A DNA stretch of 41,997 bases, taken from the NCBI GenBank assembly GCA_022340905.1, contig JAJDNB010000225.1, forward strand, positions 1-41,997. Direction: 5' to 3'. The DNA is from Deltaproteobacteria bacterium. GTDB lineage: Bacteria; Desulfobacterota; Syntrophobacteria; BM002. The translations under genes were made by a program, and so were the position numbers. Positions 12,875-25,844 of this stretch are shown here, piece after piece. How positions within the stretch are numbered: the stretch's first letter is position 1; every line of letters starts with the position of its first letter. Under the pieces are notes generated by a model. That model had not been told where the DNA came from, searched no databases, and saw only the letters and a program-made list of their open reading frames with translations.

Positions 12875-13762
12875 CTAGATCCAACGTTTTTCCTTCAAAA
12901 TCTTGAGTCCCTTAAGAGCGCTCGTTTCCTTATCCTTTATCTCCAGCATCAAATCAAAGTCCAATCCTCTGGTCTCTTGGAGAAACTTTTTGAAGCTTGC
13001 TGTGTTCAGCGTCTTTGCGTGCGATCCCGACCGTTGGCCTCTCTGCTGACTACTATAGTCTACCATGGGAATGCCATCTGATTCTTGCCAGGTACTGGCA
13101 GAAAGTTCCAAGCCTTGTCGCAATGTTTCACCGTTGTGGAGGCATTGGTGATGAAAGGCGTCAAAAAGTATGGGAATTCCAATTTTTTGATATACCGACA
13201 AACAATCCTCCAAACTATACGATCTGTCGTCGTTCTCGATCACCAACCTTCTTTTGAGCGACGTGCTCAAAGCGTTGTATCTGGCAATAAACCTATCGAT
13301 GGCGGAGCTTTTGTCGCCATATACTCCGCCCAGATGAATCTGAATTTTTGCCGTTCCATCGAGTTCCATTTCATCCAACACAGTGCAATGGTATTCCAGC
13401 TCTCTGATGCTTGCCTCAACAACATCGTCTTTGAGCGCATTGATGATTACAAATTGATCAGGATGCATGGAGATCCTTATGTTGTGCTCTTTTATGAACG
13501 CGCCGACTTTTCTGAAGTGTCCACTGAAATGACCGGCCCAGTCATAGGTGCAAACGGGATGTGAGGCGAACGGGACCAGGTCGGAACTTATTCGAAAAAA
13601 GAAGAAACCATTCTGAACATTGTACCGCAAGATCTTGAGCAGACAATCCAAATTGTTTTCCACCTTCTCGACTAGGCGTTCTTCTGTGTAGGAGGCGAGT
13701 CTGAAGGTGGAATTGCTTGTGCAACCAATTCCTCGATTTATGCAGGGATATCCGATTCTCAT
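12875..13762 (-). CDS. uvsE: UV DNA damage endonuclease UvsE
   Basis: 295 aa from the second ATG (13762), which is 6 nt from GAGG; the first ATG at 13765 is only 3 nt away. It begins MRIGYPCINRGIGCTSNSTFRLAS, the UVDE N-terminal signature. Metal-binding positions of the TIM barrel are visible in ISMHPDQFVIINA, YHCTVLDEMEL, IQIHLGGVYGDK, LVIENDDRSYS and FDAFHHQCLHN, then DYSSQQ and LMLEIKDKE. The enzyme nicks DNA 5' of UV photoproducts and some other lesions, an excision route independent of UvrABC. It is the first gene of a minus-strand pair with the PPOX gene. Confidence 0.95.
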   Translation of the reverse strand: MRIGYPCINRGIGCTSNSTFRLASYTEERLVEKVENNLDCLLKILRYNVQNGFFFFRISSDLVPFASHPVCTYDWAGHFSGHFRKVGAFIKEHNIRISMHPDQFVIINALKDDVVEASIRELEYHCTVLDEMELDGTAKIQIHLGGVYGDKSSAIDRFIARYNALSTSLKRRLVIENDDRSYSLEDCLSVYQKIGIPILFDAFHHQCLHNGETLRQGLELSASTWQESDGIPMVDYSSQQRGQRSGSHAKTLNTASFKKFLQETRGLDFDLMLEIKDKETSALKGLKILKEKRWI

Positions 13763-13930
13763 CATAATCCTCAGTGAGTTAGCTTTTGATAACTAACTCA
13801 GAGAATATAGTGCTGAAATGGTCAACTTACAATGGCCCATTGAGGTAAAGTTCGCTGGATCAGTAAAAATTTGATTGACCCATGGGGAGGGGAATGTAAT
13901 AATTTTCTGTAGCAAAAAAATCAGCCAGCC

Positions 13931-14041: not shown

Positions 14042-14203
14042 ATGGCAGAGCCAACAAAAAGTTCACTTGTTTATGTTTACGACAAGGAAGGGAATGCTTA
14101 CATCTGTGACATGGATGATTTGCGAGATGCCTCAACCGTAAGCGATGAGGAGAAAGCTTCCTGTACCGATCTGGATCGGGGCGGGTTTAGCAGAAACGAA
14201 TAA
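14042..14203 (+). CDS. Small acidic hypothetical protein (53 aa)
   Basis: The start is ATG 14042 after GGAGGGGAG, an unusually strong ribosome binding site, with a strong terminator 31 nt after the TAA. These signals make a real gene likely despite its size. The product is soluble and acidic, beginning MAEPTKSSLVYVYDKEGNA, with two Cys (positions 22 and 41) and a run of Asp/Glu in the middle. I recognise no family. A similar stand-alone, well-expressed mini-gene style is seen at 28576 and 29124. It is separated from uvsE by 276 nt and from the transporter by 242 nt. Confidence 0.72.
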   Translation: MAEPTKSSLVYVYDKEGNAYICDMDDLRDASTVSDEEKASCTDLDRGGFSRNE

Positions 14204-14445: not shown

Positions 14446-15849
14446 ATGAAAATTAAACAATCAGATAGGGTTCCCATAGCCAAGAAACTGGCCTATGCGG
14501 CTCCGGCATTTGCCCTAGCGATTGTGGGAATACCCGTTTACGTTTACATCCCCAAGTTTTACACTGACGTGGTGGGGGTAAACATCGCCATGCTGGGTTA
14601 TTTGCTCCTAGCGGTGCGACTTTTCGACGCTGTGACCGACCCGGCAATAGGCTTTCTTTCCGACAGGACACAGACTCGCTTCGGCAGGCGCAGACCTTAC
14701 ATTGCCGCTGGGGTAATTTTTCTCTCACTGTCAATGTATTTTCTCTTCAATCCACCTGAAGCCTCTCCAGACTCCGAGACTATCTGGTTCGGGGTGACCA
14801 TTTTCTGTTTGTTTCTTTTCTGGACAGCGATTGTGGTTCCTTACGAGTCTCTGGGGCCTGAGATCACCTTTGATTATGACGAAAGAACTACCCTGCTGGG
14901 CATGAGAGATGGAGCCCTGATTGCAGGCACTCTGGCGGCGGCAAGTTCACCGGCGGCAGTGGCCTGGGGCTTTGGCCTGCCGCCAACCGATGAAGGTGAG
15001 CGGGCCAAATTTTTCTGGATTGCTGTTCTCTATGCCCCTCTGTTGCTAGCCTTCTGTTGGTGGTGTGTGTTGGCGATCCGCGAAAGGCCACAACTTTTCC
15101 GAGGAGAGAAGCAAAGGCTGCTGCAAGGGCTGAAAGAAGTGTCACAAAACAAGCCCTTTGTAATTCTGCTGATTTCTTACATCGTAGCCGCCTTTGGCAG
15201 TAATCTACCTGCTACTTTGATTCTCTACTATGTGGAATATGTTCTCCAGTCCAAGTACGCTGATCTTTTCCTGCTCATTTACTTCGTTACCGGCGTCCTT
15301 TTTCTGCCTGCCTGGATTTATATGGCACGGAAGCTAGAGAAAAAGGTTACCTGGCTTACTGCCATGGCAATAAACACCGGCGCTTTTTTAGGGGTTTTTT
15401 TTCTCGGGCCTGGGGACGGACACATCTATGGAGTCCTGTGTTTTCTCTCGGGAATCGGCTTCGGTGCAACCCTCGCCATACCCTCTGCCATGCAGGCTGA
15501 TGTTATCGACTATGATGAGCTTCTCTCAGGCCAGAGACGAGAGGGCCAATACATTGGCATATGGTCTATAACCAAAAAGCTTGCCGCTGCACTGGGAGTT
15601 GGCTTGGCGCTATCCATTTTGGGTGGAGTCGGTTATGAGCCCAACGTTGAGCAGTCAGAAAAGGTGCAATTAACTCTCAGAATCCTCTATGCATTGGTGC
15701 CCTCTCTGTGCAACATTGCTGCTTTTGTCATCGCCCTGGCATATCCTGTTAGCCGCAAGATTCATAAGGATATCCTGGCGGCCATCCAGGAGCGGCGCAG
15801 TGGAAATACGGTTACAGATCCTCTCCGTCCAAACCAGACACTCGGATAA
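14446..15849 (+). CDS. GPH-family (MelB-like) MFS transporter
   Basis: 467 aa with about twelve membrane segments. The GPH signature is near the N-terminus (MLGYLLLAVRLFDAVTDPAI, then GFLSDRTQTRFGRRRPYI), with the Asp residues that bind the coupling cation. The second half keeps ADVIDYDELLSGQRREGQYI. Members such as MelB carry sugars with Na+ or H+, but homologues inside CFA/DUF1365-type lipid clusters are common and probably do not carry sugar; LPS or lipid movement is a reasonable guess. It is first in a plus-strand run with DUF1295 (39-nt gap) and the coclaurine-type methyltransferase. Confidence 0.88.
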   Translation: MKIKQSDRVPIAKKLAYAAPAFALAIVGIPVYVYIPKFYTDVVGVNIAMLGYLLLAVRLFDAVTDPAIGFLSDRTQTRFGRRRPYIAAGVIFLSLSMYFLFNPPEASPDSETIWFGVTIFCLFLFWTAIVVPYESLGPEITFDYDERTTLLGMRDGALIAGTLAAASSPAAVAWGFGLPPTDEGERAKFFWIAVLYAPLLLAFCWWCVLAIRERPQLFRGEKQRLLQGLKEVSQNKPFVILLISYIVAAFGSNLPATLILYYVEYVLQSKYADLFLLIYFVTGVLFLPAWIYMARKLEKKVTWLTAMAINTGAFLGVFFLGPGDGHIYGVLCFLSGIGFGATLAIPSAMQADVIDYDELLSGQRREGQYIGIWSITKKLAAALGVGLALSILGGVGYEPNVEQSEKVQLTLRILYALVPSLCNIAAFVIALAYPVSRKIHKDILAAIQERRSGNTVTDPLRPNQTLG

Positions 15850-15888
15850 TGGATGGGGGGGGTGGAGCTTTAGCGAGAGGAGAAATGA

Positions 15889-16683
15889 ATGGAGTTTTTA
15901 TCTTCCATTTACGTTGCTAACCTCTTAGTGGTCATGACCTTGATGACCGGGGTGTGGCTGGTGAGTTTGACTAAACAAGATGCCAGCATAGTCGACGTGT
16001 TTTGGGGGCTGGGATTCGTTGTCGTTGCCTGGCTTACTTTCCTGCGACCGGATGGGTACCTGGGTCGAAAAATTTTGCTCACTGGGCTTATTACTCTCTG
16101 GGGACTGCGTTTGGCGATTTACATCTTTATTCGGAACTGGGGACACGGGGAGGATCGCCGCTACCAGGCTTGGAGAGCCCAACACGGCGCCCGGTTCTGG
16201 TGGGTTAGTCTATTCACCGTCTTCTGGCTTCAGGGTGGTCTTTTGTGGATAATTTCGCTGGTGGTGCAAGTAGGTGAGCTCTCGCCAGAGCCTGCCAGGC
16301 TCACCTGGCTTGATTTGCTCGGCACTTTGGTCTGCCTCTTTGGTTTCGCTTTCGAAGCCGTGGCCGACTGGCAACTGTACCGTTTCAAGGCCAATCCTGA
16401 CAACAAAGGCAGAGTGATGAACAAGGGGCTGTGGGGTTACACCCGACACCCCAATTATTTTGGGGAGTCTCTGGTTTGGTGGGGACTGTTTCTTATCACT
16501 TTGGCCACACCGGGAAGCGGCTGGGTGGTGATAAGCCCGCTGCTTATAACCTTTCTCTTGCTGAAAGTCTCAGGCGTTACTCTGTTGGAAAAGACGATTG
16601 TAGATAGTCGGCCCGAATATGAGGAGTACATAAAGAGCACGAGCAGCTTCATTCCCTGGTTTTCAAAAAAGGAGAAGCCATGA
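15889..16683 (+). CDS. DUF1295 / steroid 5-alpha-reductase-like membrane protein
   Basis: 264 aa, with GAGAGGAG about 7 nt before ATG 15889. There are six to seven membrane segments. The signature is the C-terminal motif RVMNKGLWGYTRHPNYFGE, shared by DUF1295, isoprenylcysteine methyltransferases and 5-alpha-reductases. Other conserved stretches are KQDASIVDVFWGLGF and RNWGHGEDRRYQAWR. The family is presumed to reduce or methylate lipids in the membrane using NADPH or SAM; the actual reaction is unknown. Its TGA overlaps the next ATG by four bases (ATGA), so the two are coupled. Confidence 0.88.
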   Translation: MEFLSSIYVANLLVVMTLMTGVWLVSLTKQDASIVDVFWGLGFVVVAWLTFLRPDGYLGRKILLTGLITLWGLRLAIYIFIRNWGHGEDRRYQAWRAQHGARFWWVSLFTVFWLQGGLLWIISLVVQVGELSPEPARLTWLDLLGTLVCLFGFAFEAVADWQLYRFKANPDNKGRVMNKGLWGYTRHPNYFGESLVWWGLFLITLATPGSGWVVISPLLITFLLLKVSGVTLLEKTIVDSRPEYEEYIKSTSSFIPWFSKKEKP

Positions 16684-17708
16684 GATTTGCCATTGAACTA
16701 GCAGAACGTGGCCTACTTCCAGATAGGCTCATCCGCTGGGGTATACGTGAATTGGACAAGAAAAGATTGCGCATGGAAGATCTGGGCGACACGGAAAAGC
16801 AACGGGAGGCATTAGCACGTTTCGTTGATGAACTCAGGAATAGTCCCATTGCAGTGCAAATAGACAAACCCAAGGAACAACATTACGAGGTCCCCCCAGC
16901 TTTTTTTGAAAAAGTCCTGGGCAAATGGATGAAATACAGCAGTTGCTATTGGCCCCAGGGAGTTAACTCTCTCGACGAGGCAGAAGAGGCAATGTTGGAG
17001 TTGACCTGTGACCGGGCCCAGATAGAGGATGGCATGGAAATACTAGAGCTCGGCAGTGGCTGGGGCTCCCTTTCTCGATGGCTGGCAGAGAAATACCCAA
17101 AGAGCCGGGTGGTAACGGTGTCCAATTCCCGACCGCAAGGGGAGTTCATCAAGGCGAGATGCGCAGCCTCGAACCTCGATAATTTAGAAGTGGTACGTGC
17201 TGATATGAATGATTTCGAAACTGATCAAACCTTCCACAGAATGGTATCTGTGGAGATGTTTGAACACATGCGCAACTGGGAAAAGCTTCTTGCTCGCATT
17301 TCCACCTGGCTGAAACCGGATGGAAAACTGTTTCTCCACATTTTCACCCACAGAAAATTTGCCTACATTTTCGAGGAAGAAGGTGAGGACAACTGGCTGG
17401 GGCGGTACTTTTTTACTGCTGGATTGATGCCTTCCCATGACCTGCTATTCAATTTTCAGCAAGATCTCGAGGTGGAAGACCACTGGCGGGTGAACGGAAT
17501 GCACTACAAGAAGACAGCCGACGCCTGGCTGAGGAATCTCGACGGAAGGCAGAATCAGATCTTACCCATATTGGCAGAGACCTACGGCCAAAACCAGGCC
17601 GAACGCTGGTTGCAGCGGTGGCGCATTTTCTTTCTTGCCTGTTCAGAGCTCTGGGGCTATGGAAATGGCGAGGAATGGCTGGTTTCACACTACCGCATGA
17701 CGAGGTAA
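16680..17708 (+). CDS. CFA-family SAM methyltransferase, coclaurine N-methyltransferase-like subgroup
   Basis: 342 aa. The entry motif QHYEVPPAFFEKVLGKWMKY followed by SSCYWPQG is that of the coclaurine N-methyltransferase-like branch rather than classical CFA synthase. The SAM motif is EILELGSGWGSLSRWLAEKYP, followed by VVTVSNSRPQGEFI and MVSVEMFEHMRNWEKLL. It lacks the roughly 100-residue N-terminal lipid-binding domain of true CFA synthase. The second CFA paralogue at 20269 has that domain. In related clusters a methyltransferase adds a methyl group to an unsaturated fatty acyl chain, and that role is plausible here but not proven. It overlaps the DUF1295 gene by 4 nt. Confidence 0.87.
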   Translation: MRFAIELAERGLLPDRLIRWGIRELDKKRLRMEDLGDTEKQREALARFVDELRNSPIAVQIDKPKEQHYEVPPAFFEKVLGKWMKYSSCYWPQGVNSLDEAEEAMLELTCDRAQIEDGMEILELGSGWGSLSRWLAEKYPKSRVVTVSNSRPQGEFIKARCAASNLDNLEVVRADMNDFETDQTFHRMVSVEMFEHMRNWEKLLARISTWLKPDGKLFLHIFTHRKFAYIFEEEGEDNWLGRYFFTAGLMPSHDLLFNFQQDLEVEDHWRVNGMHYKKTADAWLRNLDGRQNQILPILAETYGQNQAERWLQRWRIFFLACSELWGYGNGEEWLVSHYRMTR

Positions 17709-17768
17709 AAAGGGGAAAGCCCCATGAGTCTACAAAGCTAAGTCGTACATAACAAGTCTCATTAGGAG

Positions 17769-17833
17769 AGGTTTCAGGTTTCAGCCTTCGCCTTAGATTC
17801 TTATTTTTTTCTGACACCTGACACCTGAAACCT
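17769..17833. terminator. Long hairpin from TGACACCTGAAACCT words between convergent genes
   Basis: AGGTTTCAGGTTTCAG (17769-17784) pairs at 15 of 16 positions with CTGACACCTGAAACCT (17818-17833), followed by TTTTT on the plus strand. The 33-nt loop contains a T-run. The DUF2177 stop codon is immediately beyond. It probably terminates the methyltransferase transcript and perhaps DUF2177 as well. Confidence 0.6.
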
Positions 17834-17835
17834 TT

Positions 17836-18243
17836 TTAAAGTATTTGCCTGGCAACGAGAAAGCCGCCGGCTGAAACAAGGCCACAAAGTACCATTCCCC
17901 AAAGGATATCAACCACCACAATCTTCACCGGCCAGTCTTTGAGGGTAGCCAGATTAGTGAGATCATAGGTTGCGTAGGTGAACAAACCGTAAAGTATACC
18001 GAGGATGACGGTTCGAGCAAACGAACCTCCATCGATTCCAGGTAAGAGGGCGAAGATCAGTATTCCCAGAATGTAAAGGGAATAGAATATGAAGGCAGCA
18101 GCCCAGTTGACCCGTTCTCTGAAAAAACGCCCTAGATGTCTATTGTAGAAGCCCTTGGCAACTACACCCAACCAAAGAATGTCAATTGCGAAGAAGAACA
18201 GAGCAGTTATTATGTAAAGCTGAATAAGTTCAGTGGCAGTCAT
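17836..18243 (-). CDS. DUF2177 family membrane protein
   Basis: 135 aa from ATG 18243, with AAGGAGAG about 6 nt upstream; an in-frame start at 18285 adds 14 residues but lacks a site. There are four membrane segments. Family hallmarks are AIDILWLGVVAKGFYNRHLG, then YGLFTYATYDLTNLATLKDW and VDILWGMVL. Function unknown. DUF2177 genes are regular members of bacterial clusters with CFA synthase, DUF1365 and flavin amine oxidase. It lies between convergent and same-strand members of that set here, with the exported protein gene directly upstream. Confidence 0.88.
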   Translation of the reverse strand: MTATELIQLYIITALFFFAIDILWLGVVAKGFYNRHLGRFFRERVNWAAAFIFYSLYILGILIFALLPGIDGGSFARTVILGILYGLFTYATYDLTNLATLKDWPVKIVVVDILWGMVLCGLVSAGGFLVARQIL

Positions 18244-18307
18244 AAGCTCTCCTTGGATAACCAATATTTTACCTTCGAAAGTCACGTGCCCATGTTTTAA
18301 ACAGTGC

Positions 18308-18334
18308 TGGATTCCCGCCTCCGCGGGAATGACG
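18308..18334. repeat. ATTCCCGC-loop-GCGGGAAT palindrome, copy A
   Basis: ATTCCCGC (18311-18318), loop CTCC, GCGGGAAT (18323-18330), with flanks TGG and GACGG. It lies between DUF2177 and the exported protein gene. A near-identical copy occurs at 28855-28881. Confidence 0.85.
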
Positions 18335-18349
18335 GAAGAGGCAGGTCAG

Positions 18350-19090
18350 CTAGCTCTCGTAGGAATAGGTTATTGTGACTTCTTTATGTTTGCCTTGGAT
18401 GTCTTCTAAGTTGGAAACACCTTTGTAGCGTAGGAGATGGCGCGTTCTCAAATCATATTCCACATCAATATGGGGCGCGAACAGCCTGAGCAACCAATTG
18501 TCCACTTCCAGACGGATAAAGATGGTATCATCTTCAATTTTTTGCTTGCTAATTCTGAATTCATATTGATCCAGACGGGAAGGCAAAACCATCAGCACCT
18601 GAAAAATCTCCCCTTGGGCTATTTGTTCGAGGTTGTGGACGATAAATTGGTGAAAACCCTGGCCTACTATTTGATTGTCTTCTTTGACAAGATACTTGTC
18701 CTCGAGGGGTGCTTCCGGGCTTTGCTTTCGAAAAAGCCAAATCCTGTCCAGCCCCACTTTCGCACCATCCTGGTATTGGGCACGTCTGTCCAGGAAATCA
18801 TAGCTCCCAAACTGGGAACCAAAAGAATATTCTGAAACTAACTCTCCAATTTTGTTTTGATTGGCATCGTAATAAATTGTTTGGCTTTCGCTCACCTTGC
18901 CGTCTATGTAGGTAACAGTGTGATACTCAGAGTATTCAAGGGAGCCCTCAGAATTTACTGCTTTGCCAAAAAATAGTTCTCCCTGTGCTTCGGTTCCAGA
19001 GCTACCGAGACTAAAGGCCAGGACAGAGAAGAGAGCTACAACAAACTGGGTTGATTTTCTTTTTGACACGGAAACGTCCTTGCGGAGCAT
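18350..19090 (-). CDS. Exported hypothetical protein of the lipid cluster
   Basis: 246 aa from ATG 19090, with GGGGAG 9 nt upstream; a TTG at 19117 would add 9 residues. A signal peptide is clear: KRK at residues 10-12, then FVVALFSVLAFSLGSSGTEA with probable cleavage after TEA-35. The mature part is beta-rich with no Cys. It has segments such as YHTVTYIDGKVSESQTIYYD and VDNWLLRLFAPHIDVEYDLR that read like a periplasmic or outer-membrane lipid-contacting fold (a DUF6134-like look, stated with low confidence). It is presumably upstream of DUF2177 in one transcript. Its presence inside the cluster suggests a role in envelope lipid handling. Confidence 0.7.
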   Translation of the reverse strand: MLRKDVSVSKRKSTQFVVALFSVLAFSLGSSGTEAQGELFFGKAVNSEGSLEYSEYHTVTYIDGKVSESQTIYYDANQNKIGELVSEYSFGSQFGSYDFLDRRAQYQDGAKVGLDRIWLFRKQSPEAPLEDKYLVKEDNQIVGQGFHQFIVHNLEQIAQGEIFQVLMVLPSRLDQYEFRISKQKIEDDTIFIRLEVDNWLLRLFAPHIDVEYDLRTRHLLRYKGVSNLEDIQGKHKEVTITYSYES

Positions 19091-19128
19091 ATTCAAAATC
19101 TCCCCTTTTATGTACAATAAAATATTTT

Positions 19129-19149
19129 CCCCTCCCCTAGCGGGAGGGG
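19129..19149. repeat. CCCCTCCC...GGGAGGGG palindrome
   Basis: CCCCTCCC (19129-19136), a 5-nt loop, GGGAGGGG (19142-19149), in the spacer between the exported protein gene and the divergent DUF1475 gene. There is no T-tract next to it. Confidence 0.75.
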
Positions 19150-19377
19150 ATTAAAGATATATGACTTCTCTTCTGGTAATGCCTCCAGGAAAATGCGGTT
19201 CAGTAAAGTTGCCGCAAGATAAGGCTTAAAATGGCGATGTCAAATGGGAGGACAAGGTTGTAGGATTAACCTACCATTCTACTCTATTGTTATTGGTATT
19301 GTTTACTTGATAATCCGACCTATTTTTAAAATGGTAATTCAATTTTCCATGCACTAACGAAGGTGAGAAGAAAGAAG

Positions 19378-19728
19378 ATGAATAAATCGAGTCTTTATTT
19401 CTTGAAAGCATTTTTTACTGTTACTCTTATGGCCATGCTTTACGTAACAATTACTGCGACCAATAATCAAAATATTTTCGAAGCCGTGGGAACTATCTGG
19501 CCCAATTGGTGGTTCAGGGCAACCCTGATTGATGCCTACTTAGGATTCCTGACCTTCTACGTCTGGGTGGCCTACAAAGAACTACACCTGTGGCGCAAAA
19601 TACTCTGGTTTGTTCTGATCATGCTTTTGGGAAATTTGGCAATTTCCTCATACATGCTGCTCGAACTCTATAAACTTCGAGTAGGCGATACTTTTGCAAT
19701 CTTGCTTACGAGGCGCAATGGAAAATGA
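19378..19728 (+). CDS. DUF1475 family small membrane protein
   Basis: 116 aa from ATG 19378, after a purine-rich GAGAAGAAAGAAG. Three membrane segments are visible (residues about 8-28, 44-62, 73-95). Recognised by the conserved block WFRATLIDAYLGFLTFYVWV followed by AYKE and by WFVLIMLLGNLA. The function is unknown. Its last 11 nt overlap the start of the DUF2062 gene, so the two are translated together. Confidence 0.78.
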   Translation: MNKSSLYFLKAFFTVTLMAMLYVTITATNNQNIFEAVGTIWPNWWFRATLIDAYLGFLTFYVWVAYKELHLWRKILWFVLIMLLGNLAISSYMLLELYKLRVGDTFAILLTRRNGK

Positions 19729-20203
19729 TCACAGGTTTTTTTACAGGAAAATAGTTGAGCCTGTAGTTGCACTAATCAAACAGGGTATTTCTCCCGAGAG
19801 AATCTCCCTAGGCATGGCCGGCGGAATTATTCTTGGGGTATTCCCGGCTTTGGGCGCTACCACCATTTTATGCGGGCTTGCAGCGATTATTTTTCGACTG
19901 AATCTGCCGGCCACTCAGCTGGCAAACTACTTGGTCTATCCCTTACAAATCATGCTCATCATTCCTTTTTTTCATCTTGGTGGGCTATTATTTCAGGTGG
20001 AACCCCCTCCTCTTTCTGCTCAAGAGCTCATAACCTTATTGCGCTCCGATCTGTTGGGTACTATCAGCTCTTACTGGAGCGCCACCCTACGCGCCATTGT
20101 GGCCTGGCTGCTGTTTGGCCTGCCAACTTTCTTAATCTCGCATTTCAGTCTTCTTCGGCTTATAAAGACACTTGAATTTGCCGGCACTGGTGCAAAGAGG
20201 TAA
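19718..20203 (+). CDS. DUF2062 membrane protein
   Basis: 161 aa from ATG 19718, inside the end of the DUF1475 gene; a frame start at 19694 is less likely. The DUF2062 pattern is GISPERISLGMAGGIILGVF followed by PALGATTILCGLAAIIFRLN and then ANYLVYPLQIMLIIPFFHLG. It has about four membrane segments. DUF2062 domains often sit beside glycosyltransferases or lipid enzymes and are probably involved in envelope assembly. It is convergent with the CFA synthase gene, with a 65-nt gap. Confidence 0.85.
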   Translation: MENDHRFFYRKIVEPVVALIKQGISPERISLGMAGGIILGVFPALGATTILCGLAAIIFRLNLPATQLANYLVYPLQIMLIIPFFHLGGLLFQVEPPPLSAQELITLLRSDLLGTISSYWSATLRAIVAWLLFGLPTFLISHFSLLRLIKTLEFAGTGAKR

Positions 20204-20268
20204 GACGCGCAATCACTTGGAGCAAAACCCCAAAGAACGTCATTATTCCCTGAGACCAGATGATGCGG

Positions 20269-21552
20269 TTAGGTAACAAGGGGTGTTAATAGTGGTGGGC
20301 GGCGGCAAAGGGGTTTGGTAAGCAGCATCTGTACGTCCCCCAGGTATCGCTCGGTAAAACCGGCCTCGCAGTAACAAAGATAATAATCCCACATGCGAAT
20401 GAAGGTCTCTGGATAGCCCAAACTGCGCACTTTGTCTATGTTGATAAAGAACCTTTGCCTCCAGGTGCGGAGAGTCCTGGCATAGTGAGGAGTGATATCC
20501 TCCAGGTGAAAAATCTTTAAGTCGCTGGCGCGGGCAAGGGATCTGCTCATGGCCGCAATGGAAGGTATGCAGCTTCCCGGAAAGATATACCGCTTGATGA
20601 AGTCCACACTTCGTCTATGCCGGTCAAAAAACTGGTCGGCAATCGTTATTGCCTGAAGGAGCATGGTGCCGTCTTGGTGCAGAAGTTTGCTGCAAGAGCG
20701 GAAAAAGGTGTCCAAATACTTGTGGCCCACGGCTTCTATCATTTCTATGGAGACCAATTTGTCGTACTTCCCTCTCAGATCCCGATAATCCTCTAAAAGC
20801 AATTCTACCTTGTTACCCACTCCGGCCTCGGCAATTCGTTCTTTTGCCAGATCATATTGGGCCGAGGAAATTGTGGTTGTGGTTATGCGGCAACCATAAT
20901 TTTTGGCTGCGTAGATAGCGAAACCTCCCCAGCCAGAGCCAATTTCAACTATGTGGTCTCGGGAGGATACATCCAGCTTCTGGCAGATACGAGCGTATTT
21001 GGCCATGGAAGCCTGTTCGAGGGTGCTGTCCTCGCCCTCGAATATGCCGCAGGAATAGGTAAGTGTCTCATCGAGAAAGAGTTCATAGAAATCGTTTCCC
21101 AGGTCGTAGTGGGCAGCGATGTTGCAGCGGCTTCCTTGTTTTGTGTTGCTCCGGAAATAATGAAAAATCAGATGGAGAGGGGTGGTTAGCCAGGCCAGAC
21201 CCTTTTCCATTCCCTTCAGCACTTCTCGATTCAAGATGATGATGCGCACCACCGTGGTCAAGTCGTCGGTTGACCACTGGCCTGCCATGAAAGCCTCACT
21301 GGCGCCAATACTGCCGCCAAACACTATAGAACTGTAGAAGCGGCTGTGGTGAACGGTGATGGTGGCTTCAAGGGGAAACCTGTCGCTTTTTTCACCGAAA
21401 ACTCGCCGGGCTGTGCCGTCGATTATGGTGAGTTTTCCCCACCGCAGACCACGGAGGAGAGAAAAAAGTAATTTCTTGGCGAGTTCGTCAAACCGACTTG
21501 GTTTAGTCTCCTCGATAGCACATGCCTTCGCAGGCACAATGGAGTCACTCAT
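20269..21552 (-). CDS. cfa: Cyclopropane-fatty-acyl-phospholipid synthase (classical type)
   Basis: 427 aa, the length of full CFA/mycolic acid cyclopropane synthases. The N-terminal domain (about 25-130) has FGGSIGASEAFMAGQW. The catalytic part begins AHYDLGNDFYELFLDETLTY, then VEIGSGWGGFAIYAAKNYGC and LVSIEMIEAVGHKYLDTFF, with FIKRYIFPGSCIP and the closing MWDYYLCYCEAGFTER. These are the SAM site, bicarbonate/glutamate region and lipid pocket signatures. It transfers a methylene or methyl group to cis double bonds of membrane phospholipids. It is the last gene of a tight minus-strand operon after the flavin protein and DUF1365 (gaps of 2-3 nt). Confidence 0.93.
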   Translation of the reverse strand: MSDSIVPAKACAIEETKPSRFDELAKKLLFSLLRGLRWGKLTIIDGTARRVFGEKSDRFPLEATITVHHSRFYSSIVFGGSIGASEAFMAGQWSTDDLTTVVRIIILNREVLKGMEKGLAWLTTPLHLIFHYFRSNTKQGSRCNIAAHYDLGNDFYELFLDETLTYSCGIFEGEDSTLEQASMAKYARICQKLDVSSRDHIVEIGSGWGGFAIYAAKNYGCRITTTTISSAQYDLAKERIAEAGVGNKVELLLEDYRDLRGKYDKLVSIEMIEAVGHKYLDTFFRSCSKLLHQDGTMLLQAITIADQFFDRHRRSVDFIKRYIFPGSCIPSIAAMSRSLARASDLKIFHLEDITPHYARTLRTWRQRFFINIDKVRSLGYPETFIRMWDYYLCYCEAGFTERYLGDVQMLLTKPLCRRPPLLTPLVT

Positions 21553-21555
21553 GAT

Positions 21556-22314
21556 CTACTCTCTTTTTTCTGGGTGGACGTAAAAAGGCGTCCCCTTGGA
21601 CCATAATCTGAGGGCCTGGAGATAAATCATAGTGGTGACCTTGAGGGTCATGAGGGGATAGGCTAGTAAGACTCTGTTCAAGGCATAGCTGTCAATCTCC
21701 CTTCGATTCAGGGTCAAGGTGGCATCGAATAGCTTTTTCCCCTTTTCAGAGTTGTTCATGTGCACAGTCAATGATGTGCCGGGTTTTCTAAATCTCCAGT
21801 CGTACCAAATATCCATGTCCATAAAAGGCGAAATGTGGAAATTCTTATTGAATTGGTAGCGCTTCCAACCTCTCATGGGATGCTCATTCAGATCCTCACC
21901 AAGGACGTAGCAATATTCTTCACCCCACGGCGTGTTGTGAATCTCAGCCACTATGGTCTCCACCTCCTCGTCGGATTCATCATAACAGTAATAGAAACTC
22001 ACAGGATTGAAGCAGTAGCCGAAGTAGCGCAAGTGAGTGAGCAGACGAATGGACCCCTTTGGCCTTTTTTGCAATCGACCTTCCACAAGGTCACGGACAG
22101 CTTGCTGGAGTGGAACTCGCGGATCGCCCAAGTGATCCCGACGGCGCAGATAAGCCAGATTAACCCGATCGTGTGACCAGAAAATAGTATTACGGAACAG
22201 TTCCGGCAGTTCCTCCAGGTCGAGGAACATAAAAAAAATGCGATAGCGAAATGAGTTCTCCACTGGTCGGAAGCGACGGTGGCGGACATGACCCTCGTAG
22301 ATGCAGCTATTCAT
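21556..22314 (-). CDS. DUF1365 family protein
   Basis: 252 aa. Starts MNSCIYEGHVRHRRFRPVEN and contains LRYFGYCFNPVSFYYCYDE, the family signature, plus NTPWGEEYCYVL and FNKNFHISPFMDMDIWYDWR. It has no signal peptide; a hydrophobic segment near the C-terminus (VLLAYPLMTLKVTTMIYLQA) could touch the membrane. DUF1365 proteins are almost always encoded between a flavin amine-oxidase-like gene and a CFA-type gene, as here. The gaps to its neighbours are 2 and 3 nt, so the three are one translational unit. Function unknown; a part in fatty-acid modification is inferred. Confidence 0.92.
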   Translation of the reverse strand: MNSCIYEGHVRHRRFRPVENSFRYRIFFMFLDLEELPELFRNTIFWSHDRVNLAYLRRRDHLGDPRVPLQQAVRDLVEGRLQKRPKGSIRLLTHLRYFGYCFNPVSFYYCYDESDEEVETIVAEIHNTPWGEEYCYVLGEDLNEHPMRGWKRYQFNKNFHISPFMDMDIWYDWRFRKPGTSLTVHMNNSEKGKKLFDATLTLNRREIDSYALNRVLLAYPLMTLKVTTMIYLQALRLWSKGTPFYVHPEKRE

Positions 22315-22316
22315 GT

Positions 22317-23561
22317 TTACAAGGTTTTCCCAAAATGTTCACCCACAGCCAGAGCGCTGTTGACGCCGTCTTCGTGGAAGCCATAGCCCCAGTAGGCCCC
22401 ACAGAAATAGGTGCGATTGACACCGTTTATCTCCAGGCGACGCTTTTGGGCCATAGGCCCCCGGGGAGAGTAAACGGGATGGTGGTAGTCGAACTCTCTG
22501 ACGATCTTGCTCCGATCAACAATATCGGGACGATTCAGGGTTACGCAAAAATCGACTGGAGAAGTGAGACTTTGAAGCATGTTCATGTAGTAGGTCACAG
22601 CCACTCTCCCCAAGTCCTCTCGGGGAATATGGTAGTTCCAGCTTGCCCAGGCGGCTTTTCTTTTGGGCAGCAGGGAGGAGTCCGTATGCAAGATCGCTAG
22701 ATTGTCCTGATAGGGAATGGCTTCCAGTATCTCCCTTTCCGCATTTGAAGGATCGGCCAGCATGGCAAGGGCCTGATCACTGTGGGCTGCTATTACAACC
22801 TGATCGAATCTTTCAACCTCGCCGTTGCGTGGGGTCACTTCTACATGGTCAGGGTGACGTTTAATGGACTCCACAGGACAACTGAGCCGCACCTTGTCCT
22901 TGTAAGACCCGGTAAGAGGTTCAACGTAACTTTTTGAACCACCTTTGATTACCTGCCACTGGGGCTGGTCTTTTACTTTAAGGAATCCGTGGTTGTTGAA
23001 AAACTGGACAAAGTAATGGGCCGGAAACTCATTGAATTGCTTTGGGTCTGCCGACCAGATTGCCTCCCCCATGGGTATGATGAAATGATGGATAAAGGTC
23101 TGGGAGTATCCCTTTCCCTCCAGATAACCTCCGAGGGTGGTTTCGTAGTCGTCGGCCTGCAATAGCTCTTGAGCCTCCCGGCGAAAACGAAATGCCTCAA
23201 CAAGCATGCGATAAAAAGAAGGCCGTAGCAGGTTGCGCCTTTGGGCGAAGAGAGAGTTAAGGCTGGTTGGGCAGTACTCCAGATCTGTTTTTTCGCTCTG
23301 GACGCTGAAGCTCATGTTGGAAGGCTGCCAGGCCACACCCAGCTGCTTCATCAGTTTTACGAAGTTGGGATAGGTGTGCTCATTAAAAACGATGAAACCA
23401 CTGTCAACAGGGTAGCTCGCACCATCGAGTTCGACATCGATGGTGTTGGTGTGCCCGCCGATATAGTCGTTGGCCTCGAAAACCACGAGATCGTGGTCCT
23501 GGCAGAGGAGATAACCGGCAACCATTCCTGAAATGCCGGTACCCACAATAGCGATTTTCAT
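22317..23561 (-). CDS. Flavin amine-oxidase-like protein (NAD(P)/FAD-dependent oxidoreductase)
   Basis: 414 aa, with AAGGAGAGAGG before ATG 23561. The N-terminal dinucleotide fold is IAIVGTGISGMVAGYLL followed by DLVVFEANDYIGGHTNTIDV. The C-terminal FAD contact is FCGAYWGYGFHEDGVNSALA. This is the family of predicted NAD/FAD-binding proteins found with DUF1365 and CFA synthase. The Rhodobacter homologue set is tied to furan fatty acid formation, where a flavin desaturase acts on a methylated acyl chain. A desaturase role here is therefore plausible, but the assignment rests on context and family only. It is the first gene of the three-gene operon. Confidence 0.9.
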   Translation of the reverse strand: MKIAIVGTGISGMVAGYLLCQDHDLVVFEANDYIGGHTNTIDVELDGASYPVDSGFIVFNEHTYPNFVKLMKQLGVAWQPSNMSFSVQSEKTDLEYCPTSLNSLFAQRRNLLRPSFYRMLVEAFRFRREAQELLQADDYETTLGGYLEGKGYSQTFIHHFIIPMGEAIWSADPKQFNEFPAHYFVQFFNNHGFLKVKDQPQWQVIKGGSKSYVEPLTGSYKDKVRLSCPVESIKRHPDHVEVTPRNGEVERFDQVVIAAHSDQALAMLADPSNAEREILEAIPYQDNLAILHTDSSLLPKRKAAWASWNYHIPREDLGRVAVTYYMNMLQSLTSPVDFCVTLNRPDIVDRSKIVREFDYHHPVYSPRGPMAQKRRLEINGVNRTYFCGAYWGYGFHEDGVNSALAVGEHFGKTL

Positions 23562-23784: not shown

Positions 23785-25020
23785 CTAGCCCTGAGCATGT
23801 CGAAGGGCTGCCGCCTGCCTGCTGGCTTTTTTGGGTGGTGCCCCGGAATTCAGCCACTCAACCGCCCTCCGTATGCCAGCCAGGGTGAGATCTTCCATGG
23901 GAAAGATCTCGCCTATTTGGAAAATAGTTTGGCTCTCCCGGGGCCATCGATGTCGGGGGATGGGGTTGAGCCACACACTGTGACCGAAGTAGTCGCGAAC
24001 TTGCCAGAGCCAGTCCCGTCCGGGCACTCTCACCTTGGAGAAATAATCGATGGCGCCATCAGAGAGCATGAGCTCGGCCGGGGCCATGTTGGCGTCACCT
24101 ATGATGATCACCCGGGTTTCAGGGTCCCGTCTCAACATCTGGTAAATGGGGTAAGGGGTCAAACGCTGAGCATCACTATAGACGCAGCCGTATATGCAGT
24201 TGTGAAAATAGTAGTAGTCCAGGTCCTTGAACTGGTCGCGCATGAGACCAAAGATCAGCTTTACCAGGTCCAAATAGGGTCGCATGGAGGCGCCACCATT
24301 GTCCAGCAAAACCATCAGCTGAATGCGATCTCTTAGTTCTCTTGTAAATACCAGATCGATCTCCCCGCCGTTCTTGCAAGTTTGATCTATGGTTGCATCA
24401 ACGTCTAGTTCGGTGGGCGGACCTGCCGGGGCCATGTGTTTGAGTGCCCCCAGGACCTGGCGGAGATTCTCGGCTCGAAGAGTGGCACTAGCAGCGTAAT
24501 CCAGATAGCGGCGAGACTCTATGACCTTCAGGGCTGACCCGTGGAGGGAGTCACCCTCAACCCGGATGCCTTCCTGTTCTGCCCCTGTGTGGCCGAAGGG
24601 AGAGGTACCTCCGGTGCCCACCCAGGTGTGGCCACCACGGTGTTTTTCTCGCTGCTCCATGGCCACTTCCCAAAATCTTTGAAGCAACTCTGTCAGAGAG
24701 AGCTTCTCCAGGGCGTCATCAGCAAGGGTCCCTTTCGCGAGCTCTTCTTCCAGCCAGCGGCTGAAATCTTTTTCTACCCACGCCTGGAGAGAGAATCGGG
24801 GAATAGAGTCACCCTCACCACCGAGAAAATAGGCGGCAAAGGCCTGCTCAAAAACGTCAAAGTGTTCAACTTTCTTAACAAAGATTAAACGCATCAAAAT
24901 GAACAGTCGGTCCAGGTCGGGGGCAAGTCCCTTCTCTAGAGCCCGATAGAATTCAAGCACGTATTTCAGACTTACCGGAATGCCCTGGTCACGCAACTGA
25001 TAAAAGAAAGGAAGGAACAT
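23785..25020 (-). CDS. VWA-domain (CoxE-like) protein
   Basis: 411 aa from ATG 25020, which is 8 nt after the MoxR stop with AGAGG close by; an in-frame start at 25152 overlaps the MoxR gene and is rejected. The N-terminal half is helical. The VWA domain starts near residue 255 (QLMVLLDNGGASMRPYLDLV). The metal-site motif DxSxS is degenerate (DNGGAS), though a later YYYFHNCIYGCVY and VIIIGDANMAPAE fit the fold. With the MoxR ATPase it makes the usual chaperone-like pair that inserts metals into, or matures, a partner enzyme. The last ten residues (QAAALRHAQG) are encoded by intergenic repeat words. Confidence 0.85.
   Translation of the reverse strand: MFLPFFYQLRDQGIPVSLKYVLEFYRALEKGLAPDLDRLFILMRLIFVKKVEHFDVFEQAFAAYFLGGEGDSIPRFSLQAWVEKDFSRWLEEELAKGTLADDALEKLSLTELLQRFWEVAMEQREKHRGGHTWVGTGGTSPFGHTGAEQEGIRVEGDSLHGSALKVIESRRYLDYAASATLRAENLRQVLGALKHMAPAGPPTELDVDATIDQTCKNGGEIDLVFTRELRDRIQLMVLLDNGGASMRPYLDLVKLIFGLMRDQFKDLDYYYFHNCIYGCVYSDAQRLTPYPIYQMLRRDPETRVIIIGDANMAPAELMLSDGAIDYFSKVRVPGRDWLWQVRDYFGHSVWLNPIPRHRWPRESQTIFQIGEIFPMEDLTLAGIRRAVEWLNSGAPPKKASRQAAALRHAQG
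23790..23807. repeat. CCTGAGC-NN-GTCGAAGGG word inside the VWA gene's 3' end
   Basis: CCTGAGC at 23790-23796 and GTCGAAGGG at 23799-23807. The same word occurs at 4295-4313, and in inverted form as TTCGAC-TT-AGCTCAGG at 5673-5688. Here it supplies the last codons of the VWA gene. A similar word is known to me from spacers of many unrelated genomes. Confidence 0.7.
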
Positions 25021-25028
25021 CTTCGCCT

Positions 25029-25844
25029 CTAACTTTTTTCTTTTTTGTGATGGAGTAAATCCTGAGTACGCTTTAGCAGGGTTCCAAGGAAAGGAACTGT
25101 ATCTGGAGAAAGTGGTGGTTTCACCCCGTCGAGTTGTAGGGCGCCGAGCCAATCTAGCAGTTCTGCTGTGGCGGGTGGTTTCTCAAATCCCTGTTCCCGC
25201 AACTGATAAAAGACTGCGAGGGCCGAATCCATCAAGGGTGCCGGAATTTCAGGGTAGTGCAGCCGGACAATGCGGCTCATTTCCTCCATGTCCGGAAAGG
25301 GGATATGATGACAGTAGCAGCGCCGGAGAAAAGGATCGGAGAGCTCTCTCTTGGCGTTACTGGTGATAACGGTGACCGGCATATATTTCGCCTTCACCTT
25401 ATGGTTTATCTCGCGAATAATGAAAGATCCGTCTTCGAGCACGTCCAATAAGTTGTCTTGAGTGTCTGAGTCAGTCTTGTCAATTTCGTCCAGCAGAAGA
25501 ACACGCCTGTCGTCGGCCATAAAAGCTCGTCCTATGGGGCCGAAGCTCAAATAATCCCAAATATTGTTAACATCTCTGCCGCTTTCTTCGGTGCCAAAGC
25601 GGGAGTCATTGAGACGCAAGACCGTATCATAGACGTAACAGAGCTCTTCTCCTTTGAAAGTTGACTTGCAGCGAGCCTCTTCCAGAGTCAAGTCCAGAGC
25701 CCGTGAAATCTGGAAGGCCAGTTGAGTCTTGCCGGTTCCGGCTTCACCAGTGACCAACAAGGGTTTCTCCATGGCCATGGCAATGTTAACAATCTCTTTG
25801 AGTTCCGGATTGAGGTAATACTTGTCGGTGCCGTGAAACTGCAT
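25029..25844 (-). CDS. MoxR-type AAA+ ATPase
   Basis: 271 aa, with GAGGG shortly before ATG 25844. Walker A is GEAGTGKTQ (about 33-41), Walker B is VLLLDEIDKTD (about 115-125). Sensor 1 is VITSNAKRELSDPFLRRCYC, which contains the arginine finger region. The length is short for MoxR but covers the AAA core and lid. It is upstream of the VWA gene in a two-gene operon, a pairing known for CoxD/CoxE and other MoxR-VWA systems that mature metalloenzymes. No CO dehydrogenase or methanol dehydrogenase genes are visible, so the client is unknown. Confidence 0.9.
   Translation of the reverse strand: MQFHGTDKYYLNPELKEIVNIAMAMEKPLLVTGEAGTGKTQLAFQISRALDLTLEEARCKSTFKGEELCYVYDTVLRLNDSRFGTEESGRDVNNIWDYLSFGPIGRAFMADDRRVLLLDEIDKTDSDTQDNLLDVLEDGSFIIREINHKVKAKYMPVTVITSNAKRELSDPFLRRCYCHHIPFPDMEEMSRIVRLHYPEIPAPLMDSALAVFYQLREQGFEKPPATAELLDWLGALQLDGVKPPLSPDTVPFLGTLLKRTQDLLHHKKEKS

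Follow-up and report, generated by a model that had tools for sequence, protein, structure and literature searches.

Ten consecutive genes of a deltaproteobacterium, at positions 14,446 to 23,561 of a 41,997-nucleotide stretch of DNA (the window), raise the question of which modified membrane lipid they serve to make. The window is the entire contig C72 (JAJDNB010000225.1) of genome G000 (GCA_022340905.1; 4.1 Mb, 94% complete, 278 contigs). The original prediction for this DNA had considered that the product could be a cyclopropane or plain methyl-branched lipid. We estimate instead, with a probability of about 0.84, that the region is a furan fatty acid (FuFA) biosynthesis locus. This kind of system is already known; what is surprising is its host and the extended, recurring set of uncharacterised accessory genes that goes with it.

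An open reading frame (ORF) check of the window confirmed ten consecutive genes on both strands, all of them open where the original prediction had placed them. Pfam families were assigned to nine of the ten proteins (MFS_2, DUF1295, CMAS, DUF2177, DUF1475, DUF2062, CMAS, DUF1365, and Amino_oxidase); the Pfam profile search gave no match for the tenth, an exported protein of 255 residues (EXP). The genes form four transcription units rather than a single one: GPH-DUF1295-CFA2 (plus strand), EXP-DUF2177 (minus strand), DUF1475-DUF2062 (plus strand), and UfaD-UfaO-UfaM (minus strand). The last unit spans 23561-20269 with intergenic gaps of 2-3 bases (ufaD ends 2 bases before ufaO) and contains the core of the proposed pathway.

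22317 to 23561, minus strand: ufaD, first gene of the operon, predicted flavin adenine dinucleotide (FAD)-dependent acyl desaturase (11-Me-18:1 to 11-Me-18:2); Pfam Amino_oxidase, E 2e-28; role taken from PMC7380195.
21556 to 22314, minus strand: ufaO, DUF1365, predicted O2-dependent furan-forming enzyme; PF07103 over its full length, E 1.5e-85; DUF1365 is UfaO in PMC7380195.
20269 to 21552, minus strand: ufaM, predicted S-adenosylmethionine (SAM)-dependent C-methylase of cis-vaccenoyl chains; CMAS, E 1.4e-83; E236/A240/Q266 signature (E. coli Cfa numbering).

The activities of this trio have been established in Rhodobacter and Rhodopseudomonas: UfaM methylates vaccenoyl chains of phospholipids, the product is then desaturated by UfaD, and UfaO builds the furan, taking the oxygen atom from O2 (Lemke et al., PMC7380195). 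Three genes of Rhodopseudomonas palustris, RPA2571-2570-2569 (ufaD-ufaO-ufaM), are enough to produce a monomethyl FuFA (PMC7380195), and the order of the genes in the window is the same. The window UfaD, encoded in the same operon as ufaO, has a dinucleotide motif at its N terminus. AlphaFold models UfaO with confidence (pLDDT 95) as a beta-rich fold that also has a long helix at the C terminus, for which Foldseek retrieved no good match among solved structures, only weak lipocalin/nitrobindin-like ones (E 0.007 or worse); a sequence search of UfaO against the PDB gave no match.

A scan of named genomes for UfaO returned at least 585 relatives, of which we examined the best 80, i.e. those closest to the window and not a random sample. 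These loci belong to Desulfobacterota, Nitrospirota, Gamma- and Betaproteobacteria, Acidobacteria, Planctomycetes, Gemmatimonadetes, Latescibacteria, and others, amounting to at least 7 phyla by the labels of the sequence records. The nearest named match is from a delta-proteobacterial symbiont, and several others are from sulfate-reducer-like metagenome-assembled genomes (Desulfobacteraceae, Desulfocapsa). The three genes are contiguous on one strand in 76 of the 80 loci, with ufaD directly upstream of ufaO in 77. Fusions of UfaO and UfaM into one protein of 600-670 residues occur in three relatives from the class of the host (L037:8686-10698, L038:8204-10210, and L039:9695-11503, the last apparently frameshifted).

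The window could also be read without any furan: the two enzymes of the cyclopropane fatty acid (CFA) synthase family would make cyclopropane or simple methyl-branched chains, which the DUF1365 and flavin proteins would modify in some other way. UfaM and CFA2 do both match CMAS, and the host belongs to a poorly studied clade that may rarely meet O2. The active site of UfaM argues otherwise. Among the UfaM ORFs of furan loci, aligned to E. coli Cfa, E236 is present in 94/94, A240 in 92/94, and Q266 in 93/94, the sole exception at position 266 being the frameshifted copy in L039. E. coli Cfa and the separate, canonical CFA synthase of the host genome (contig C217) carry G, H, and H at these positions, so that the window UfaM differs from E. 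coli Cfa by G236E, H240A, and H266Q and lacks both CFA-type histidines. We take H266 to be part of the bicarbonate site of CFA synthases. Of the residues of this site (C139, E239, H266, I268, and Y317 in E. coli), the window UfaM keeps four and has Q in place of H266, i.e. not the full set of a CFA synthase. Given the place of H266 in the bicarbonate site, an altered proton abstraction yielding a methyl-alkene, and not a cyclopropane, would be a sensible reading of the substitution. A cyclopropane product is unlikely because UfaM carries furan-locus substitutions that the host's own true CFA synthase lacks. With a complete ufaD-ufaO-ufaM operon in the window and active-site residues of the UfaM type, we consider this alternative improbable, and the product suggested by the original prediction gives way to a furan.

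Would the furan carry one methyl group or two? The answer depends on the second CMAS gene.

16680 to 17708, plus strand: CFA2, coclaurine N-methyltransferase (CNMT)-like methylase, probable FufM; full-length match to 6gkv, E 4.5e-74; E-x-x-E-H site kept.

Over its full length, CFA2 is related to coclaurine and pavine N-methyltransferases, with an intact site, and its place in a CNMT-like group rather than among CFA synthases also speaks against a cyclopropane. Arabidopsis LIME1 belongs to the CNMT-like group as well. The published enzyme for dimethyl-FuFA, FufM (RPA0924), shares 38% identity with LIME1 AT4G33110 (PMC10940516) and 26% with UfaM. A similar distance separates the window UfaM from the CFA2 of a congener (24.5% identity). 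Since CFA2 is CNMT-like and published FufM resembles LIME1, CFA2 is probably FufM, its relation to RPA0924 being traced through LIME1; a second methylation of the furan is therefore predicted, with a dimethyl chain as the most likely end product. UfaM and CFA2 fall in different groups, and so the idea of a duplicated CFA-type gene with a single shared function was dropped. In congener G002, CFA2 is reduced to a C-terminal remnant (L027:5989-6108) and the rest of the cluster is retained, as expected for a tailoring step.

By analogy with the published work on homologues, we propose the following route. UfaM would act on membrane phospholipids, using SAM to methylate an unsaturated (cis-vaccenoyl) chain and leaving a shifted trans double bond, and UfaD, with FAD, would desaturate the methylated chain to a conjugated methyl-diene. 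UfaO would then insert an oxygen atom from O2 and close the furan ring, on which CFA2, probably as FufM, would place a second methyl group to give dimethyl-FuFA. Within the membrane, the furan would scavenge singlet oxygen and other reactive oxygen species.

Is such a route plausible in this host? The host genome encodes DsrA and DsrB of the reductive type, with dsrD, dsrN, and dsrC, identified by eye, beside them (L140:1671-6746, G000:C197); these genes point to sulfate or sulfite reduction, and the host is probably a sulfate- or sulfite-reducing bacterium. The genome also encodes CcoN and FixO of a cbb3 oxidase, next to an apparent alternative complex III (L128:4100-6405, G000:C121). The original prediction had found an O2-linked lipid surprising in a probable anaerobe or microaerophile; because the genome carries this oxidase, an O2-dependent lipid is feasible in microoxic conditions. 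The combination of reductive-type dsr genes with a cbb3 oxidase may indicate an O2-respiring sulfate or sulfite reducer. A furan-type lipid could conceivably arise anaerobically if UfaO relied on some other oxidant, as the dsr genes of the host and the UfaO matches in sulfate-reducer-like genomes might suggest. We find this highly improbable: the oxygen of published UfaO comes from O2, the UfaD product was detected only under aerobic conditions (PMC7380195), and the host possesses the cbb3 oxidase.

Several observations nevertheless weigh against an O2-dependent FuFA locus. From its reductive-type dsr genes, the host would seem to live mainly as an anaerobe, so that UfaD and UfaO would be deprived of O2. 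In the host genome, neither a FabA above cut-off nor an acyl desaturase was found as a source of the unsaturated chain. ChrR (TIGR02451) was not found anywhere in the 94% complete genome (a Caulobacter control was positive), and the three matches to the ChrR-type sigma promoter pattern in the window all lie away from operon starts. The assignment of ufaDOM to the assayed enzymes would follow from family, gene order, context, and active-site residues, and furan lipid production by the host strain is predicted here from its genes. An alignment of the sequences that precede ufaD, GPH, and DUF1475 in congeners revealed no conspicuous common motif; the regulation of the locus is a matter that we infer. 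A literature search gave no relevant report of FuFAs in Desulfo- taxa.

The six remaining genes of the block are the following.

14446 to 15849, plus strand: GPH-family (MFS_2) transporter; PF13347, E 2e-96; TIGR00792 above cut-off.
15889 to 16683, plus strand: DUF1295, membrane protein of the steroid-reductase/PEMT group; PF06966, E 8e-75.
17836 to 18285, minus strand: DUF2177 membrane protein; PF09945, E 6e-46.
18350 to 19117, minus strand: EXP, exported beta-rich protein with a predicted, distantly LolA/DUF1849 (EipB)-like fold (AlphaFold and Foldseek); signal-like N terminus.
19363 to 19728, plus strand: DUF1475 membrane protein; PF07343, E 5e-7, weak but above cut-off.
19694 to 20203, plus strand: DUF2062 membrane protein; PF09835, E 2e-12.

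DUF1295 overlaps CFA2 by 4 bases, and the DUF1475 and DUF2062 ORFs overlap each other. Do these genes belong with the furan core? The original prediction depended on the cluster being conserved, and gene-neighbourhood comparison supported the cluster: a second genus of the family (L034) has all ten genes in a block of inverted orientation, and nine of the ten are together in each of three congeners (L027, L028, and L029). The block is not a chance grouping, because it is kept in these three congeners and in the second genus. The cluster genes are under purifying selection, with ratios of nonsynonymous to synonymous polymorphism (pN/pS) of 0.13-0.36. In a further congener, G005 (L146:11828-18134), UvdE-GPH-DUF1295-CFA2-DUF2177 and the last 103 residues of EXP are kept and ufaDOM is missing, through deletion or misassembly.

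Among the 80 named loci, CFA2 is found within 10 kb of the core in 61, DUF1295 in 57, a MerR-like regulator in 20, and a photolyase in 14. The other families are much rarer: EXP and DUF1475 homologues are each present in 7 loci, DUF2177 in 6 (and in furan loci carried on plasmids in Mesorhizobium, Shinella, and Legionella), DUF2062 in 2, and GPH in 1 (and in several relatives from the class). Such counts, the separate transcription units, and the occurrence of DUF1475 without DUF1365 in one relative (G026) would fit a functional unit made up of ufaDOM only, with or without CFA2 and DUF1295, GPH, DUF2177, EXP, DUF1475, and DUF2062 being unrelated neighbours. This explanation is compatible with the furan core, and we regard it as possible, with the odds against it. 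A Thiotrichaceae locus contains EXP and DUF1475 in one operon-like run with the core (UfaD-UfaO-UfaM-DUF2878-DUF1295-DUF1475-EXP, all in one direction); in Planctomycetes, Acidobacteria, and Nitrospinaceae, DUF1475 comes either immediately after CFA2 or just before DUF1295. One Nitrospinaceae arrangement is D-O-M-CFA2-DUF1475 with DUF2062 close by, and DUF2062 stands beside CFA2/DUF1475 in two Nitrospinaceae furan loci. Among 60 relatives, EXP is present only in the family holding the locus, and it is at the cluster wherever both share one contig; in the Stenotrophomonas operon discussed below, the corresponding first position is taken by a periplasmic protein. Viewed earlier as peculiar additions, DUF1475, DUF2062, and EXP recur in distant furan loci.

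For a furan locus with accessory genes, the structure of EXP offers a lead. Its AlphaFold model is beta-rich (pLDDT 83), and the best Foldseek match was 6ntr (DUF1849/EipB of Brucella, E 3e-5), followed by periplasmic LolA carriers, with TM-scores of at most 0.4; that EXP may carry lipids or lipoproteins is a lead, not a result. Our guess is that DUF1295 (reductase-like), DUF2177, DUF1475, DUF2062, GPH, and EXP are accessory proteins for handling or trafficking the modified lipid in the envelope. A bolder and doubtful proposal is that DUF1475, DUF2062, DUF2177, GPH, and EXP would together make up a module of the envelope for moving or placing furan lipids; controlled by a regulator that is not ChrR, it would help a sulfate or sulfite reducer to survive light and oxygen at oxic interfaces. 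A literature search for DUF1475 gave no relevant match.

Three features flank or adjoin the locus. A UV endonuclease gene, UvdE (12875-13765, minus strand), adjoins it here and in relatives and fits a light-stress setting. A conserved ORF of 53 residues (MAEPTKSSLVYVYDKEG...; 14042-14203, plus strand) lies upstream of GPH and is followed by a terminator-like hairpin and a T run. A VWA/MoxR-type AAA gene pair (23785-25844, minus strand) is next to the start of ufaD, a position kept in congeners.

A complete FuFA pathway, probably a dimethyl one, is thus placed in a lineage that probably reduces sulfate or sulfite, and the locus is shown to extend, together with its recurring set of membrane and exported proteins that are uncharacterised, across at least seven phyla. 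The analysis provides a testable context for DUF1475, DUF2062, DUF2177, DUF1295, and a Pfam-less exported family, together with a three-residue signature that separates UfaM-like enzymes from cyclopropane synthases in annotation.

Compared with known systems, the window shares with R. palustris RPA2571-2570-2569 plus fufM RPA0924 (PMC7380195) the three families, their order, and an extra distant methylase; in R. palustris, fufM lies elsewhere, whereas the CNMT-like gene of the window is within the locus, along with DUF1295 and five accessory genes. Rhodobacter sphaeroides (RSP1087-1091 and RSP2144) has the same UfaD, UfaO, and UfaM families, but its ufaM is unlinked and its genes are under RpoE/ChrR, an extracytoplasmic function (ECF) sigma/ChrR pair, unlike in the present host. 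Loss of ChrR in Stenotrophomonas raises the expression of a nine-gene operon 165- to 697-fold, and deletion of the operon abolishes the menadione tolerance so gained (PMC11832516). This S. maltophilia operon (smlt2375-smlt2367, PMC11832516) likewise appears to encode, within a single block, a flavoprotein and a periplasmic protein, a pair of CFA-type enzymes, a pair of membrane proteins, and a product whose gene holds the place of DUF1365; the gene identities, including the first gene as a putative EXP homologue, are deduced from gene order and synteny with Luteibacter (L113). It differs from the window in its acyl desaturase, its lipocalin, and its control by ChrR, and it lacks GPH, DUF1475, DUF2062, and DUF2177 as far as its published table shows. 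In Chlamydomonas, genes for CFA1, CFA2, DUF1365, DUF2177, and DUF1295 are induced together by singlet oxygen via SAK1 (PMC4067076); these eukaryotic genes are dispersed, unlike the cluster in the window, and the portion of that paper drawn on here describes no furan lipid. Arabidopsis, finally, possesses UfaM-, UfaD-, UfaO-, and FufM-like proteins (AtUFAMD1, AtUFAO1, and LIME1/FUFM1; PMC10940516), but these are lipid-droplet proteins in which UfaM and UfaD are joined in one chain, whereas the fusion seen in bacterial relatives of the window joins UfaO to UfaM.

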